A DNA stretch of 64,000 nt from Anaerolineales bacterium (GTDB taxonomy: Bacteria; Chloroflexota; Anaerolineae; Anaerolineales; Villigracilaceae). Positions 6,311-36,271 of this stretch are shown one piece after another (the first letter of the stretch is position 1; each line of letters opens with the position of its first letter). A model generated the notes under the pieces. The model saw only the letters and a list, made by a program, of their open reading frames with translations, ran no database searches and was not told the origin of the DNA. Made by a program: the position numbers and the translations under genes. The stretch is taken from positions 1 through 64,000 of the forward strand of contig JACZJC010000061.1 in NCBI GenBank assembly GCA_014860745.1, given 5' to 3'.

Positions 6311-6354
6311 CGGCACACAGAACGAAAAATCTAAAAGAAAGGAGCGCGCTCTTG

Positions 6355-6432
6355 ATGTCCACTGTTATCTTTATCCTCCCCTTTGCAGTTGGGAATTTCC
6401 CTTCTCGGAGTGCGCCTATTGACCGAACCTAG
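6355..6432 (+). CDS. 25-residue leader peptide ahead of the ABC exporter
   Basis: Start ATG has aaaggag ten bases upstream. The peptide begins hydrophobic (VIFILPFAV) and ends SRSAPIDRT. Its stop lies 27 bases before a terminator hairpin and 111 bases before the exporter start. Codons 19-21 (agt gcg cct, Ser-Ala-Pro) overlap an RNA segment that can pair with the terminator. The arrangement matches ribosome-controlled attenuation; the known parallel is BmrB, the leader peptide of the heterodimeric exporter BmrCD in Bacillus subtilis. That similarity is of layout, not sequence. The peptide is probably regulatory rather than functional itself. Confidence 0.62.
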   Translation: MSTVIFILPFAVGNFPSRSAPIDRT

Positions 6433-6489
6433 GTCTTTTTCAGTCCCCTGTTTGTTTTGGGCTGTGGCGCATTCGCCGCAGCCTTTTTA
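6409..6489 (+). promoter_or_regulatory. Attenuator: terminator with competing antiterminator
   Basis: Terminator: 6460-6469 pairs with 6474-6483 over 10 bp (one G-U), loop catt, then ttttt. Antiterminator: gagtgcgcc (6408-6416), inside the leader ORF, pairs with ggcgcattc (6466-6474) over 9 bp with one G-U, which would remove the inner half of the terminator stem. A ribosome finishing the ORF covers the first strand and favours termination; one stalled earlier in the hydrophobic part frees it and favours read-through into the exporter. Confidence 0.6.
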
Positions 6490-26542: not shown

Positions 26543-27574
26543 CTACTTCTCCTTCTCCCAGCGCCTACGGTCCTCGGGCTTTTCGGGATCCAAATATTTC
26601 GGATCCACTTTTTCAAAAACTCTGTGACCATGTGAAGTCCACAGGTCAGCGGCGAGTTTACGCGCATCCCCGCGCATACCCTGTGCGGAAAAATACTGAC
26701 AGATGCGAATCACATCCCGCTGGAAAATTCCCCATGAGGCGGGGTTTGATTCGGGCAGGACTACTTGCGGAAAGTCAATCAACTTGATCTCTCCATCCCA
26801 GTACAGGATGTTATACGCCGAGAGGTCACCGTGGATCCGGTCTTTCGATAGCATGATATCGATGTTGTGAATCACTTTGTCGAACAGAGGTTTCACTTCG
26901 TCCCTCTCCAGGGAGATGCGGCTAAGCGGCGGCGCGGCAGTTCCAGCATCCCCAATAAACTCCATCAAGATGGCGTTCTTCTCTTTCGCATATGGTTTTG
27001 GGACATCGGCACCTGCTTCAAAAAGATTTTCCAATGTGACATACTCATACGATATCCAGGATTGATGCCGCACTTCCTCGCCATAACTGGTACGCTTCGC
27101 AATCGCATTGACATCCGCCTCCTTCCATAACGCTGTGCCGTCCTCATCCAAATCCACGCGGCCGACACGATATTGCTGGTCGTTCTTCAAATTCCGAAGC
27201 GAGCGCGGGCGATACACCTTCGCGGCAAGAAGCGGCGCATCCACCTCCGCCCCGGGCTGGCACAGATAAACGGATGCCTCTTTTCCGCCCTTGACTCTGC
27301 GCATAACATCCGAGATCCACTTGTGCTCATAAAAACTGCCAAGCGAATCCAACAGCCACCACTCTTCAAAGCGCGCCGCCTTGTAGGTAAATTTGAATTC
27401 CTTCGATACATCCTGCGCGCGGAGGAAGAGCTTTGCCTCCATCTCGCGCTTTTTCGACTCGCGTTTTTGGGTCACACGCTTTTGAAGAAACTGCGTTCCT
27501 CCTTCACCTTCATTCAAATCATCGAGCTCTTCGAACATTTCATATAAATCGTTCATGTTCATTTTTGTATACAT
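26543..27574 (-). CDS. RIO-type serine/threonine kinase (RIO1-like)
   Basis: 343 residues. RIO core: glycine-rich-like VKGGKEASVYLC, Lys in LAAKVYRP, catalytic HGDLSAYN, metal-binding LIDFPQ. The N-terminal 100 residues are charged and helical. RIO kinases act in small-subunit ribosome maturation in archaea and eukaryotes; the bacterial role is unclear. I chose ATG 27574 (aggga about ten bases upstream); an in-frame ATG at 27664 has no SD. It lies downstream of a 21-codon leader ORF and two terminator hairpins, suggesting expression that depends on read-through. Confidence 0.85.
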   Translation of the reverse strand: MYTKMNMNDLYEMFEELDDLNEGEGGTQFLQKRVTQKRESKKREMEAKLFLRAQDVSKEFKFTYKAARFEEWWLLDSLGSFYEHKWISDVMRRVKGGKEASVYLCQPGAEVDAPLLAAKVYRPRSLRNLKNDQQYRVGRVDLDEDGTALWKEADVNAIAKRTSYGEEVRHQSWISYEYVTLENLFEAGADVPKPYAKEKNAILMEFIGDAGTAAPPLSRISLERDEVKPLFDKVIHNIDIMLSKDRIHGDLSAYNILYWDGEIKLIDFPQVVLPESNPASWGIFQRDVIRICQYFSAQGMRGDARKLAADLWTSHGHRVFEKVDPKYLDPEKPEDRRRWEKEK

Positions 27575-27689
27575 TGCTGTTAATTCCCTTTTTGCTCTCA
27601 CTCTGTAACGGGGAGTTGCCTGTTCAAGGAGCGAATCTCCTTGAATACCATGCAGGGCTTCCATTACAAGTGTGCAATCAGAATACTTA

Positions 27690-27723
27690 AAACAAAAACC
27701 ACAGGTTACAACAACCCTGCGGT
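27690..27723 (-). terminator. Second hairpin between the leader and the RIO kinase
   Basis: On the minus strand accgcagg (27723-27716) pairs with cctgtggt (27705-27698), one G-U, followed by a T-rich run (fwd aacaaaaa at 27690-27697). It shares ccgcagg with the first terminator upstream, so the two may be alternatives or a duplicated element. Confidence 0.55.
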
Positions 27724-27754
27724 CAGGTGCTGCGAGATCAACTCGCTTTGGAAA

Positions 27755-27786
27755 ATAAAAACCGCAGGCGGAGCGCGCCTGCGGTT
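27755..27786 (-). terminator. Attenuator terminator with a competing antiterminator
   Basis: Minus strand: aaccgcaggc (27786-27777) pairs with gcctgcggtt (27769-27760) over 10 bp, then tttttatttt. The segment aggcgcgct (27780-27772), spanning the top of the 5' arm and the loop, is the exact complement of agcgcgcct (27835-27827) in the leader ORF. Pairing of those nine bases would break the top four base pairs of the terminator. Confidence 0.65.
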
Positions 27787-27805
27787 GATGGTCACCTAAT
27801 TGGAA

Positions 27806-27871
27806 TTACACCAACTCACGCACAGGAGGCGCGCTGAACAATGTGTGGGCAGATACCAAGATAGCTTGCAT
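27806..27871 (-). CDS. 21-residue leader peptide ahead of the RIO kinase
   Basis: ATG at 27871 has aaaggagg nine bases upstream. The peptide starts MQAILVSAHTLF and ends SAPPVRELV. A promoter precedes it and a terminator begins 19 bases after the stop, so the unit is complete. Codons 13-15 (agc gcg cct, Ser-Ala-Pro) form the antiterminator strand, the same amino acids and position in the RNA fold as codons 19-21 of the leader at 6355. Ribosome-dependent attenuation is inferred. It could instead be a free-standing mini-protein. Confidence 0.6.
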   Translation of the reverse strand: MQAILVSAHTLFSAPPVRELV

Positions 27872-27910
27872 GTTTTCGAGCCTCCTTTCGTGGAATAAGA
27901 TAGTGGCGGT

Positions 27911-27940
27911 ATTTTACATCCCGACTGCGTGACACGTCAA
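27911..27940 (-). promoter_or_regulatory. Promoter of the 21-residue leader
   Basis: Minus strand ttgacg (27940-27935), 18-base spacer, taaaat (27916-27911). The -35 overlaps the last codons of the EamA gene, and the start of transcription should fall about 25-30 bases before the leader ATG. Confidence 0.65.
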
Positions 27941-31612: not shown

Positions 31613-32302
31613 TTACAAAGGAATCGTAAAAAAGAACGAGCTCCCCTGCCCTGCCTTGCTCTCGAACCAGGTCTCGCCATCGTGCAGGTCAATGATGTGT
31701 TCGGTGATCTTCAAACCAAGCCCAAAGCCGAGGCGCGGATCGTCCTTATCTTCGAGAATGGTCTCGAACGGTTCGAAGACCAGTTCCTGATCGGCTTGCG
31801 CGATTCCAATGCCTGTGTCGCGTACTTCAAACAAAATATTATTCGCCTCCCGCTCGACCCGAACGGTGATACGGCCTTTGTCGGTAAACTTCACTGCATT
31901 GTGAATGTAATTCAGCAAAGCCTGTGAGAGACGGGTCGCATCCGCTTCGATGGACGGCAGGTTTTTCGCAACTTCCTCCTCCAGTGTCACGCCGCCCTTT
32001 TGCCCGACCAATTGCTCGGCTATTGTCAAGACACCATCCAACATTGCATAGATATCCACCTCTTCCAGTTCCAATTCCATCCTGTTCGTGACGGTTTCCG
32101 CATAATCCTGAATTTCATTTACCTGCACAACCAATGGCGCCAGCGCTGCCTGGATGTGTTCTATTGGTGAATCTTTTACATCAACGTAATCCTCCAATTC
32201 CTCCACGCGGTACAAGTCATTGACCCTGGCTTGCACCTCCGCCAATCCGCTACGCAAATGGCTTGATATTCTATATAAGAATTCGTTTTGAAAATCGGTC
32301 AT
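31613..32302 (-). CDS. Small cytoplasmic sensor histidine kinase
   Basis: 229 residues with no membrane or PAS domain. H-box-like SSHLRSGLAEV near residue 15, N-box ALLNYIHNAVKF, G1 DTGIGI, F-box and G2 GFGLGLKI. It starts four bases after the ABC exporter stop, so it is part of the exporter operon. No response regulator is adjacent. It may sense the state of the exporter or an internal signal; partner unknown. Confidence 0.82.
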   Translation of the reverse strand: MTDFQNEFLYRISSHLRSGLAEVQARVNDLYRVEELEDYVDVKDSPIEHIQAALAPLVVQVNEIQDYAETVTNRMELELEEVDIYAMLDGVLTIAEQLVGQKGGVTLEEEVAKNLPSIEADATRLSQALLNYIHNAVKFTDKGRITVRVEREANNILFEVRDTGIGIAQADQELVFEPFETILEDKDDPRLGFGLGLKITEHIIDLHDGETWFESKAGQGSSFFFTIPL

Positions 32303-32305
32303 CTT

Positions 32306-34102
32306 TTACTCCTGGAATCCCGTCTTATATAATTCGTAGTAACGGCCTCTTGACCCAAGCAATTCCTCGTGTCTGCCCTGCTCGATAATATTTCCCCCGT
32401 CTATAACAATAATTCTATCCGCATTCGTGATCGTGGACAAACGATGAGCGATCACAAAGGATGTGCGTCCCTTTAAAAGCCTCGCCAGCGCACGTTGAAT
32501 GACCTGTTCGGTTTGAATATCCACCGACGAGGTGGCTTCATCCAAAATCAGGATCCGCGGATTGGCAAGCAGCGCGCGCGCAAATGAAATCAACTGACGC
32601 TGTCCCACGCTCAAGGTTGCACCACCTTCTTCAACCAAAGTCTCGTATCCATCCTTCAAGCCAAGTATAAAATCATGCGCGCCAACCGCCTGCGCGGCAG
32701 AAATCACATCTTCGTGGCTCGCATCCAAACGACCGAATAAAATATTCTCTTTCACTGTGCCATTGAACAAAAACGGGTCTTGCAGCACCATACCCATTTG
32801 GGCGCGCAGCGATTGCTGAGTCACCATCCGCAGGTCCACGCCGTCCACGAGCACACAGCCATCGGTTGGGTCATGGAAGCGTGCGAGCAATTTGACGATG
32901 GTGGTTTTCCCCGCTCCCGTCTCGCCTACCAAGGCCACAGTTTCGCCCGCTTTTACATCCAGATTGATTTGATCGAGAACCAAAGTTGGGTCATCGGAAT
33001 AATGAAAGCTGACGTTTTCGAATCGCACCCCGCCGACGATTACTCCCAGTTCTTTGGCATTTTCCGCATCCTGCACATCCACCTCGGTATTGAGCAGCTC
33101 CAGGATTCTCTCCCCGCCCGCCATCGTGGATTGGAGCGTATCGAAACGGCGGCTCAGATCACGGATGGGTTCGAAGAATCGGTCAACATAAAGAACAAAG
33201 GCGATCAATACGCCAGGGGTTATCGATTCGCCCAACACAGCCGTGCCGCCAACATATACTACCAAGGCGGTTGCCACTGCGCCCAGCACATCCACAACCG
33301 GCGTGTATACCGATGCAACCCTGGCTGCGTCGAGACTGGTTTCATAGAAATAGCGGTTCACATATTCCTTGAAGGTTTTGTAATTCCGCTCCTGTCGGGA
33401 AAACGCCTGCACCACCCGTACTCCGTTCACATTTTCTGCCAGCACGGAATTCGTCCACGAAACGGCGGCGCGTACTTTGCGATAATTCTTTCGAGCAACC
33501 GAGCGGAACGCCATAGTAGCCAGGACCATAAAAGGCAGGACAGCAAAGGTAAGCATGGAAAGTTTCAAGTTCAAAGCGAGCATTGCGATCAAGGTGCCGA
33601 CGATCCCCAGTAAATTGCGGACGATGGCCAGCACAGCCCACGTGATGAATTCGCGCAATGTACCCACATCATTGATCACGCGGGTAATAACCCGCCCCAC
33701 GCTGTAGCGGTTGTAAAAACTCAAGGAAAGTTTTTGAAGATGCCCGAACATTGCCATACGAACATCGTACAAAACATGCTGCCCGACGCGGGACATGATG
33801 CGAACGCGGAGGTAGTTAAACCCTAATTGAAAAATCGAAACTGCAAGAAAAATCAATACAATCCTGCGCAGTGACACCGGGTCGTTCGCCGCAATGCCAT
33901 CATCGATTGCCAGTTTTACAAAATACGGCCCGGATACCGAAGCAGCCGTTACCAGAATCATAAAAAGCAAGGCGACGGACATTTGCCGGGCATACGGCTT
34001 TACAAACCGCAGCAGCCCGCGCGCCACTCTGGGGTCGTACATCTTGTCGAGGATTTCCTCCGACTGGGTGATGAAAGCTGGAGGGGAGATTCTGGTTGTC
34101 AT
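32306..34102 (-). CDS. Second ABC exporter, catalytic-site subunit
   Basis: 598 residues: six-helix exporter domain and NBD with Walker A GETGAGKTT, altered signature LSVGQRQ, Walker B ILILDEATSSVD with catalytic Glu, and AHR H-loop. The pattern equals that of the protein at 8576. It follows the partner subunit by two bases. Together they form a heterodimer with one degenerate site. Confidence 0.9.
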   Translation of the reverse strand: MTTRISPPAFITQSEEILDKMYDPRVARGLLRFVKPYARQMSVALLFMILVTAASVSGPYFVKLAIDDGIAANDPVSLRRIVLIFLAVSIFQLGFNYLRVRIMSRVGQHVLYDVRMAMFGHLQKLSLSFYNRYSVGRVITRVINDVGTLREFITWAVLAIVRNLLGIVGTLIAMLALNLKLSMLTFAVLPFMVLATMAFRSVARKNYRKVRAAVSWTNSVLAENVNGVRVVQAFSRQERNYKTFKEYVNRYFYETSLDAARVASVYTPVVDVLGAVATALVVYVGGTAVLGESITPGVLIAFVLYVDRFFEPIRDLSRRFDTLQSTMAGGERILELLNTEVDVQDAENAKELGVIVGGVRFENVSFHYSDDPTLVLDQINLDVKAGETVALVGETGAGKTTIVKLLARFHDPTDGCVLVDGVDLRMVTQQSLRAQMGMVLQDPFLFNGTVKENILFGRLDASHEDVISAAQAVGAHDFILGLKDGYETLVEEGGATLSVGQRQLISFARALLANPRILILDEATSSVDIQTEQVIQRALARLLKGRTSFVIAHRLSTITNADRIIVIDGGNIIEQGRHEELLGSRGRYYELYKTGFQE

Positions 34103-34104
34103 GG

Positions 34105-35934
34105 TTAGTTATCCGACCTTCTTTGCATCAGCGTATTCTCATGCATTTCGCCTTCCGCTGCGGCACCGAGAAGATCCTCCACCATTTCCATTTCATCGGA
34201 AAACCGTACCTGCCCCACCAATTGCAAATCGTGGATTTCCTTATACAAGCCGCCCTCCTTCAACAACGCATCGTGTGTGCCGCGTTGGATAATACGTCCC
34301 TTATCCATCACCAAAATCATATCCGCCCGCTTCACGGTGGACAGGCGATGTGCGATCACAAAGGTTGTGCGGCCTTCCATCAATTTATCAAGCGCAATCT
34401 GAATCAATTTCTCGGTCTGCGTATCCACACTGGAAAGGGAATCGTCCAAAATTAAAATACGCGGATTCATCAGGAGAGCGCGGGCAATCGCCACCCGCTG
34501 GCGTTGCCCGCCTGAAAGGGTCACACCGCGCTCGCCAACAACGGTTTCGTATCCATTCGGGAATCCTTCGATGAATTCATGAGCCTGTGCCGCTTTCGCC
34601 GCCGCAAGCACATCCTCTATCGCCGCCTCAGGTCTGCCGTACGCAATGTTATTCTTAATCGAATCCGAGAACAACAACGAGGTTTGCAGCACGATCCCAA
34701 TCTGCTTTCTCAAAGCCGCCAGATCGATACCGCGGACATCGTGCCCGTCTACCAATACTGCCCCTTCGCTGACATCATAAAAACGTGGAATGAGATTTAC
34801 AAAGGATGTCTTACCCGAACCGGTGGGACCGATCAATGCAACCAAACGGTTCGGTTCGACCTTCAAGTTGATCCCGTCCAACGAGGCATTTTTCTCGTTT
34901 TGATATTTCAGACCCACCTCGCGGAATTCGATCTCGCCGCGCAAATTCTCCAATTTAATGGCACCATCTTTTGATCGAATCGCTGGAGCTACGTCCAACA
35001 CCTCCAGCACACGCTGCGCGCCGGCAGCGGCCTCTCCCCCAGCATTGACGAGTCCGGTCAGGGCTTGTGCGGGCTCGGCCATCATTAAAATATAGGCGTT
35101 GAAGGCCACGATCGCACCGATGGTAAGCGTTCCATCCATCACCATCCCTCCGCCAAACCAAAGGATGAGCATCGTGCTGAGCAATGTCAACCAGTTGGTG
35201 GTCGGCATGATCTTCGCCCATTCATCGATCACCTTCACCCAGGTCGTAAAAACAGCCTTATTGGCCTTTTCAAAACGGTTAGTTTCATATTCTTCACGCG
35301 CAAAAGCTCGTACAACCTGAACACCGGTTACATTTTCCTGCAAACGGTTCGACACTTCTCCAACAGCCGAATCCACGGCAAAGAACAATTTCCCGATCTT
35401 CGTCCCAAAGCTGGAGGTCATGAGGATCAACGGGATGATCGGCAGCAGCGAAATAACCGCAAGGGACTGATTCACACTGAACATCACGAACAGGATGCCA
35501 AAGGAGAGAAAAACAAACCGCACCAGTTCCGCAATGGACGACCCAGCAAACCGCTCGATCGAACGAACGTCCTCGATACAGCGCGAGATCAATTGTCCGC
35601 TTTGGGCGTGGTCGTGATAGGAAAACGGGAGATATTGAATATGGTCATATAACCGATTGCGTAAATCATAGCCGACATTGATCGCGATCCACTCGGAAAT
35701 GTATCGGTGAGATAAGTTCAAAAATGCCGAACCAAGCCCAAGGCCGAATAACAAAAGCGCGGAGCGGGCCAGGCTCATGGTCTGGCCGCCCACCAACCCA
35801 TCATCGATCACAGACTGGATGATACGCGGCACGAATAGGTTTAATCCGGTTAAGGTCAGCAGGATGACGAGTGAAGCAAGCACCTGCCAGGTGTAAGGCT
35901 TGAGAAATGTGGAGATGCGAATCAAATGCTTCAT
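34105..35934 (-). CDS. Second ABC exporter, degenerate-site subunit
   Basis: 609 residues. Walker A GPTGSGKTS, canonical LSGGQRQR, and Walker B ILILDDSLSSVD with Asp in place of the catalytic Glu. First gene of a three-gene operon (two exporter halves and a histidine kinase). The order, Asp-type subunit first and LSVGQ-type second, is the same as at 6.5-10.5 kb, so the two exporters are probably old paralogues. No leader ORF was found here. Confidence 0.9.
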   Translation of the reverse strand: MKHLIRISTFLKPYTWQVLASLVILLTLTGLNLFVPRIIQSVIDDGLVGGQTMSLARSALLLFGLGLGSAFLNLSHRYISEWIAINVGYDLRNRLYDHIQYLPFSYHDHAQSGQLISRCIEDVRSIERFAGSSIAELVRFVFLSFGILFVMFSVNQSLAVISLLPIIPLILMTSSFGTKIGKLFFAVDSAVGEVSNRLQENVTGVQVVRAFAREEYETNRFEKANKAVFTTWVKVIDEWAKIMPTTNWLTLLSTMLILWFGGGMVMDGTLTIGAIVAFNAYILMMAEPAQALTGLVNAGGEAAAGAQRVLEVLDVAPAIRSKDGAIKLENLRGEIEFREVGLKYQNEKNASLDGINLKVEPNRLVALIGPTGSGKTSFVNLIPRFYDVSEGAVLVDGHDVRGIDLAALRKQIGIVLQTSLLFSDSIKNNIAYGRPEAAIEDVLAAAKAAQAHEFIEGFPNGYETVVGERGVTLSGGQRQRVAIARALLMNPRILILDDSLSSVDTQTEKLIQIALDKLMEGRTTFVIAHRLSTVKRADMILVMDKGRIIQRGTHDALLKEGGLYKEIHDLQLVGQVRFSDEMEMVEDLLGAAAEGEMHENTLMQRRSDN

Positions 35935-35976
35935 AATCGGGATATTCAGGATACCACATGGTCAGGCTGGAAATCA

Positions 35977-36004
35977 AATCGGGCTGACCTGGGTCAGCCC
36001 GATT
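35977..36004 (-). terminator. Hairpin after the Lrp-like gene
   Basis: aatcgggctgacc (35977-35989) and ggtcagcccgatt (35992-36004) pair over 13 bp. It follows the Lrp-like gene on the minus strand with a tttgattt tail and precedes the exporter operon. Confidence 0.7.
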
Positions 36005-36024
36005 CACCAAGACAATGAGTTGGG

Positions 36025-36255
36025 TTACATGTCGACAGCAAGGCAGGTGAGAGTTTGCTCCACGCCAGGAATCGGCTGAATTTCCAAAGCTGTGACGGCA
36101 CCCAGGTTTGCAATGTCGGACGCCTCCACGACAGCAACCGCGTCATACGGGCCGAACGTCATATGAGCCTCGACAACGCCTTTGATCTTGCGGAGATGGT
36201 CGATCACGCCTCCCACATCACCCGCACGAATCTTGATCATGATATATGCTTTCAT
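36025..36255 (-). CDS. Stand-alone Lrp/AsnC ligand-binding (RAM) domain protein
   Basis: 76 residues from ATG with ggagaag upstream. It has the alpha-beta RAM fold of Lrp/AsnC regulators (VGGVIDHLRKIKGVVEAHMTFGPYDAVAVVEA) but no DNA-binding HTH. Such single-domain proteins may bind amino acids or modulate partners. It follows the formate/nitrite channel gene by 16 bases, so a regulatory link to that channel is plausible. Confidence 0.83.
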   Translation of the reverse strand: MKAYIMIKIRAGDVGGVIDHLRKIKGVVEAHMTFGPYDAVAVVEASDIANLGAVTALEIQPIPGVEQTLTCLAVDM

Positions 36256-36271
36256 ATCTTCTCCTTTTCGG

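Follow-up and report, generated by a model that had tools for sequence, protein, structure and literature searches.

In Bacillus subtilis, the bmrB leader precedes bmrCD, which encodes a multidrug ABC exporter. This system is induced by drugs directed against protein synthesis, and translation of the leader is required; its terminator lies inside a 53-codon ORF (PMC4191407). In Listeria monocytogenes, the rli80 leader of hflXr combines a terminator, an anti-terminator and an anti-anti-terminator. Its 14-codon ORF, which carries an RLR motif, lies over the anti-anti-terminator, and the target is a ribosome-splitting factor (PMC6310831). In Escherichia coli, the toiL uORF of topAI is reported to sense several drug classes with one ORF. 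Some of these drugs stall ribosomes at the start codon, and the control acts on translation and on Rho-dependent termination (PMC12121999).

We analysed a leader upstream of a RIO1-like protein kinase gene on the minus strand of the window, which is the whole stretch of 64,000 nucleotides. The following parts were observed, with the leader ORF and terminator 1 read directly from the sequence.

27911..27940, minus strand: candidate promoter TTGACG-18-TAAAAT, 10/12 matches, placement conserved in relatives
27880..27886, minus strand: region 1, the leader Shine-Dalgarno (SD) sequence AGGAGGC, complementary to GCCTCCT of region 2
27806..27871, minus strand: leader ORF of 21 codons, MQAILVSAHTLFSAPPVRELV followed by a stop, with SD AGGAGG
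27824..27835, minus strand: region 2, codons 13-16, AGCGCGCCTCCT; AGCGCGCCT complements region 3 and GCCTCCT complements region 1
27772..27780, minus strand: region 3, AGGCGCGCT, the 5' arm and loop of terminator 1, complementary to codons 13-15
27760..27786, minus strand: terminator 1 (3:4), hairpin AACCGCAGGCGCGCTCCGCCTGCGGTT and then T-run TTTATTTT
27768-27762, minus strand: region 4, CCTGCGG, the 3' arm of terminator 1
27697..27724, minus strand: terminator 2 (5:6), terminator-like hairpin GACCGCAGG..CCTGTGGTT and then T-run TTTGTTTT
27722-27716, minus strand: region 5, CCGCAGG, the 5' arm of terminator 2, complementary to region 4
26543..27571, minus strand: RIO1-like protein kinase, 342 aa, start set at ATG 27571, where the alignments of relatives begin

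The kinase frame was open further upstream, to an ATG at 27664. An EamA-like transporter gene ended at 27937, directly before the leader region. An intrinsic terminator was recognised by sequence between the leader ORF and the kinase gene. Codons 13-15, AGC GCG CCT (27835-27827), were the exact complement of AGGCGCGCT (27780-27772), and GCCTCCT, which overlaps these codons, was the exact complement of the leader SD AGGAGGC. The predicted pairings give a 1:2 / 2:3 / 3:4 attenuator layout, in which 1:2 competes with 2:3 and 2:3 competes with 3:4. The sequence-only reading had claimed a 21-codon ORF with a promoter and a strong SD, and all three were read at 27940-27806 on the minus strand. Its exact complement between codons 13-15 and the terminator arm and loop was found at the positions above, and the second hairpin that it placed before the kinase was present at 27724-27697, beyond its range of 27755-27940. 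The pairing of codons with the SD, the matching arms of both terminators and the common set of downstream genes were absent from it.

By sequence, the locus shares the common architecture of bmrB- and rli80-type attenuators, namely an ORF with an SD and a promoter, a terminator and alternative pairings. As in bmrB, a leader ORF, alternative stem-loops and a terminator precede the target gene, here known from sequence. However, the ORF of about 20 codons ends ahead of the terminator, whereas the bmrB terminator is inside the ORF. Compared with bmrB (PMC4191407), this leader also differs in the overlapping codons that pair with both the leader SD and the terminator, in the RIO kinase as target, and in the second terminator. 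The three-state layout is the same as that of rli80, whose target is likewise a ribosome-acting protein (PMC6310831); the window leader is without RLR. Like toiL, the RIO leader has a single ORF and is proposed to sense ribosome stalling near the start, but it would act on an intrinsic terminator rather than on translation and Rho (PMC12121999).

The chance level was estimated at the single locus. The 2:3 helix was equalled by 3 of 200 dinucleotide-preserving shuffles and the 1:2 (SD) helix by 5 of 200. A scan for promoter-like sites gave 3 per 3 kb against 2.4 in shuffles, so that the promoter match by itself means little. The pairing at the window locus is moderately improbable by chance and unconvincing alone; it is the conservation that makes the case compelling.

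Loci of RIO homologues were collected from the named genomes (34) and from further relatives (30), the window's own included. Upstream regions were counted as distinct if their last 200 bases differed, which gave 52 regions including the window's. A leader ORF plus a terminator of this kind was found in 47 of the 52; homologous loci are not independent of each other, and this bears on all conservation counts. Two of the remaining five regions had too little upstream DNA, one (L063) was positive by the covariance model R1 described below, and two (L064 and L065) were uncalled. In L064, whose RIO protein is 45% identical, an SD complement was located by eye past the leader stop codon, and no element was seen in the upstream region of L065. 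Alignment A1 was made of 38 of the 47 regions. In A1, 93.3% of the 328 cells of 2:3 were paired and 9 were doubly changed, and neither value was reached by 500 shuffles; slid controls for 2:3 gave 68.7% paired at most. Pairs with a double change were reached in 94 of 500 shuffles and pair types in 316 of 500, and on these counts the shuffles were not beaten. The 1:2 helix was paired in 94.7%. Where the terminator had ACT or GTT, the leader matched it with codon AGT or AAC in place of AGC. A promoter-like site lay upstream of the leader in 44 of 45 relatives, compared to 8.4% of shuffled sequences. Two features of the surroundings were also seen. A short hairpin, about ACGACTTnAGTCGT, stood immediately 3' of the leader stop in many, not all, RIO leaders (L046, L047, L009, L020, L016, L026, L035 and others). 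The distance from the terminator to the kinase was 423-491 bases in seven loci (L047, L050, L059, L020, L056, L017 and L018).

The distant set consisted of 48 loci whose RIO homologues belong to two other families within the class and share about 40-55% identity over their best segment. By permissive criteria, 40 of the 48 had a leader plus a terminator. The combination was absent in 8, with a terminator only in 5 and neither in 3. The letters were different and the three-way match was retained, as in L144 (SD GGAGGCGTTTA, leader TAAACGCCTCT, terminator AGGTGTTT). Strict three-way sites, with thresholds fixed after inspection of the data, were found at 53 of 125 terminators lying within 750 bases before RIO and at 0 of the 168 terminators in other parts of these loci (Fisher 8e-24); 51 of 82 RIO loci had at least one. 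Alignment A3 comprised 38 hand-picked diverse elements, with the distant RIO rows taken from loci already called with a leader. Here the paired share was 80.5% of 380 cells for 1:2 and 87.8% of 337 cells for 2:3. Double changes occurred in 31 cells of 1:2 and in 42 of 2:3, and none of 500 shuffles reached these values. The real 1:2 and 2:3 registers beat every slid control. In 299 of 500 shuffles for 1:2 and in 147 of 500 for 2:3, at least as many pairs had a double change. Regions 1, 2 and 3 covaried at one position, which was C-G-C in 15 rows and T-A-T in 9 of the 38. The pairings are rebuilt with different letters in distant families, though not in all homologues.

These results supported the earlier claim of a leader-ORF attenuator before the RIO kinase, through pairings that were both kept and rebuilt. 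Loss of the complementarity in relatives had been named as evidence against it, and instead 2:3 was kept, with the pairing level in A1 given above. The suggested search for ORF-terminator pairs upstream of RIO kinases returned them in most close regions (47/52) and most distant loci (40/48).

We consider it likely that the RIO kinase is controlled by a ribosome-mediated transcription attenuator and that this element senses translation stress. In this reading we infer that the ORF is translated, that a stalled ribosome is the signal, and the direction of the response. On a leader free of ribosomes, region 1 would pair with region 2, the 3:4 terminator would form and transcription would stop. 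A ribosome moving at normal speed would lie over region 2 during synthesis of the terminator, and here, too, transcription would stop. A ribosome dwelling at the start codon or within about the first seven codons, which is the effect of some ribosome-targeting drugs, would hide region 1 and free region 2. The free region 2 could pair with region 3 while region 4 is still to be transcribed, which would let RNA polymerase read through.

Folds were computed for the RNA before region 4 was made. The 2:3 helix formed with the ribosome P-site at codon 2, 5 or 7. The 1:2 helix formed without a ribosome and also with the ribosome at codon 8 or 9, and neither helix formed at codons 10, 12, 15 and 18. 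With the ribosome at codon 21 or at the stop, region 2 was exposed and 2:3 formed again. The 1:2 fold at codons 8 and 9 and the renewed exposure of region 2 at the last codon or stop are points against the early-stall model. In full-length folds, the antiterminator never appeared and the terminator was favoured at every ribosome position tried, with computed energies of -17.9 kcal/mol for 3:4 and -14.5 kcal/mol for 2:3. Because the terminator always wins at full length, the choice would have to be kinetic, made during transcription.

The leader peptide was compared among relatives. In 15 nearest-neighbour pairs, early-codon differences were spread evenly over the codon positions (35, 27 and 25). 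The synonymous share of changed early codons was 17/68, and the neutral share computed on window codons 2-12 was 0.25. A test of the relatives' leaders showed no conservation of the early residues at the peptide level. The ORF is kept and its early amino acids are not, and the early codons appear to evolve as if neutral. A special peptide therefore does not seem to be needed. The Arg-Leu-Arg of macrolide leader peptides was absent from MQAILVSAHTLFSAPPVRELV, and so were codon runs for one amino acid as in trp-type attenuators.

In place of general stalling at early codons, the same switch could be worked by another signal, a specific nascent-chain arrest at the conserved Ala-Pro(-Pro). The arrested ribosome would occupy region 2, and the gene would stay off until the arrest is relieved. 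This would agree with the Pro codon of region 2, which was in frame in 44 of 48 called leaders (48 called of 82 loci) and in 14 of the 18 distant ones. However, Pro16 was replaced by Leu or Ser in 8 of 45 leaders, where the SD partner was retained through G-U. Val-Pro or Thr-Pro occurred in other lineages, and a few leaders read region 2 in another frame. Because such substitutions, other dipeptides and other frames occur, RNA pairing accounts for most of the conservation, and we regard a specific arrest as unlikely. The position of region 2 relative to the start codon varied, from codon 13 to codon 26. A proline pause with the ribosome over region 2 may, as a speculation, help the default stop.

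A second terminator was present in 30 of 45 RIO leaders by a search pattern designed for arms like CCGCAGG; its 5' arm was CCGCAGG in 29 and CCGCGGG in 1. In those 30 leaders, this arm complements the 3' arm of terminator 1 (region 4). The 4:5 cross-pair was stronger than the own hairpin 5:6 in 24, equal in 6 and weaker in 0. The 3' arm was CCTGTGG, which includes one G-U pair, in 22 leaders; the window's terminator 2 has this arm. A general terminator scan of the same regions likewise listed hairpins of the CCGCAGG type between terminator 1 and the kinase. The motif CCGCAGG-N3..14-CCTGYGGTTTT occurred at 5 places in the 4.3-Mb genome, 2 of which were terminators 1 and 2 of the RIO leader, and its reversed control at 0. 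Computed energies for the window were -27.2 kcal/mol for 2:3 plus 4:5 and -31.1 kcal/mol for 3:4 plus 5:6. These results suggested that terminator 2 may be disarmed by the same event as terminator 1. When 2:3 forms, the freed region 4 could capture region 5, and both terminators would therefore fail together.

Genes under the same switch were searched for with R1, a covariance model built from RIO leaders only. Of the 151 genomes of the order that were searched, 35 contained matches to R1, at 42 places in all. Judged by eye, the downstream genes were 16 RIO kinases, 15 ABC transporter ATPases, 3 RsgA and 2 BmrCD-like exporters; the remaining places were 1 GNAT, 1 MFS and 4 without a proper leader. 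Eight representatives were scanned with Pfam. The MFS protein was related to TetA(P) (E 8e-84, below the curated cutoff), the ABC ATPase in the window's genome was related to DrrA (E 2e-61, below the curated cutoff), and the tested RsgA scored above the curated cutoff. When R1 was run on the class, 25 of 396 genomes had matches, which added, by eye, RIO kinases of further families, exporters, GNAT-like genes and an aminopeptidase-like gene.

A second model, R2, was trained on several target families. At E <= 1e-4, 113 of the 396 class genomes had a match. In a phylum sample it matched 31 of 400 genomes, of which one (L222), a doubtful match, was labelled as outside the class. We took 75 further places, mostly the better ones, from the matches listed. 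The downstream gene was the longest ORF starting at most 900 bases away, one per locus, compared by phmmer with a few references. These genes were RIO (18), ABC exporter (17), RsgA (13), GNAT (10), another ABC ATPase (3), TetA(P)-like MFS (2) and an ABC-F protein (1), counts that lean toward the families on which R2 was trained. The 11 without a reference match comprised 7 that look GNAT-like (3 scanned, all GNAT) and 4 others. The match of each leader to its own partners was tested for 72 of the 75 loci (without L215, L217 and L222), and two (L239 and L276) were dropped since the script found no terminator, which left 70. The mean for the leader against its own terminator was 21.2 compared to 18.5 for other loci (0 of 2000 permutations); the 2:3 pairing is no part of the model structure. 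Against the own SD it was 18.6 compared to 16.5 (0 of 2000 permutations), a test that is partly circular because 1:2 is built into the model. The own partner beat 95% of the others in 18 of the 70 loci for the terminator and in 13 for the SD, and some members were without a clear 2:3 or 1:2. The ABC-F protein scored above the curated cutoff, and its leader (L277) had no convincing 1:2. Matches L217, L222 and L257 were doubtful, and L104 had a weak SD. L133 was called RIO-like by eye, and a Pfam scan of its first 150 residues had no match. Seven places without a proper leader by eye were set aside (L112, L106, L117, L118, L139, L264 and L215).

The presence of this switch before RIO kinases, ribosome-assembly GTPases and drug pumps suggests that the kinase may be turned on when ribosomes are stuck. 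A homeostatic or constitutive role without a dedicated drug response, in which ribosome loading on the leader would gauge ribosome supply and adjust RIO, RsgA and pumps, draws on the same set, since RIO and RsgA are ribosome-maturation proteins and 1:2 hides the leader SD. The element is, however, common to drug-pump-related exporters and GNAT genes, and we give this role little weight. An amino-acid-responsive attenuator of the trp type would have an identical 1:2 / 2:3 / 3:4 topology, but the leader has no run of a single amino acid, early residues vary and the downstream genes are non-biosynthetic, which makes it very improbable. A sensor of stalled or slow ribosomes fits because of the target set, the lack of amino-acid runs and the free early codons. 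The hairpins could also be plain tandem terminators of the EamA-like gene, and the ORF and its complementarity products of chance. This would suit the gene end directly upstream (27937) and the modest single-locus significance, but is hardly credible given the promoter before the leader in 44/45, the recurrence before several gene families, the covariation and the 53/125 against 0/168 strict three-way sites.

The kinase itself carried the RIO1 domain PF01163 (E 4.9e-32, 111.5 bits against a curated score of 22), and its HxDLSxYNI and IDxxQ stretches aligned with solved Rio1. It has the RIO domain in common with the RIO1-type kinases of Archaea and eukaryotes, but belongs to a bacterial branch that falls below the curated cutoffs of two NCBIfam RIO1 models. 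In eukaryotes, Rio1 is described as a factor in 40S maturation (PMC3358306). In the literature searched, we found no role assigned to bacterial RIO kinases.

Rfam gave 0 matches at the gathering score in the window; the match at the locus was at chance level on the other strand (14.1 bits against 229) and was rejected. Among the papers listed by the literature searches, with most subscription papers outside their coverage, no description of such an element was seen, and the main text of a 2010 survey of premature terminators had no Chloroflexota and no RIO kinase. With the kinase under a probable ribosome-sensing switch common to RsgA and drug exporters, a direct and testable hypothesis for its bacterial role is at hand. 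The results also suggest that Anaerolineae have an extensive, unannotated family of attenuators of the antibiotic type, and they raise the possibility that two terminators are controlled by a single stall. We are evenly divided on a broader reading, in which one RNA switch, rapidly rewritten, would underlie a translation-stress regulon throughout the class Anaerolineae. The RIO kinase would be a core member of it, as an inducible ribosome-maintenance factor beside RsgA, drug exporters and acetyltransferases, and in the RIO form of the switch one stalled ribosome would disarm two successive terminators, as the freed arm of the first captures the matching arm of the second.

Further elements were found in the window's genome. 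One before the DrrA-like ABC gene (L067, C6; E 2.5e-17) was in the training set; one before GNAT genes (L069, C29; E 1.7e-7) and one before another ABC exporter (L280, C22; E 1.7e-4) were outside it. In the window, a related leader was identified by eye and by the helix test.

6340..6483, plus strand: related leader and terminator before an MsbA/BmrCD-like ABC exporter
6355-6432, plus strand: exporter leader ORF, MSTVIFILPFAVGNFPSRSAPIDRT followed by a stop; its terminator is at 6460-6483

The exporter leader had the same three-way pairing, with 2:3 reached by 3 of 200 shuffles and 1:2 by 5 of 200, and it was not found by models R1 and R2. A second ABC exporter gene pair (31613-36260, minus strand) was preceded by a hairpin and a small ORF, which we take to be Lrp/AsnC-like; no leader of the RIO type was seen before it by eye.

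Several single loci showed other arrangements; the names ABC-2, SnoaL-like, Lrp/AsnC-like, aminopeptidase-like and AspRS are provisional assignments. In L120, a 119-residue SnoaL-like gene stood between the terminator and the downstream kinase, and in L132 the leader preceded what appeared by eye to be a GNAT-RIO kinase operon. A Ser-Ala-Pro-Pro leader preceded the aminopeptidase-like gene of L134, and in L238 a leader that matches its terminator over 12 pairs (CCACGGGCGCGC) preceded a gene resembling aspartyl-tRNA synthetase. Leaders similar to the exporter leader of the window preceded related exporters in L103, L239 and L247.
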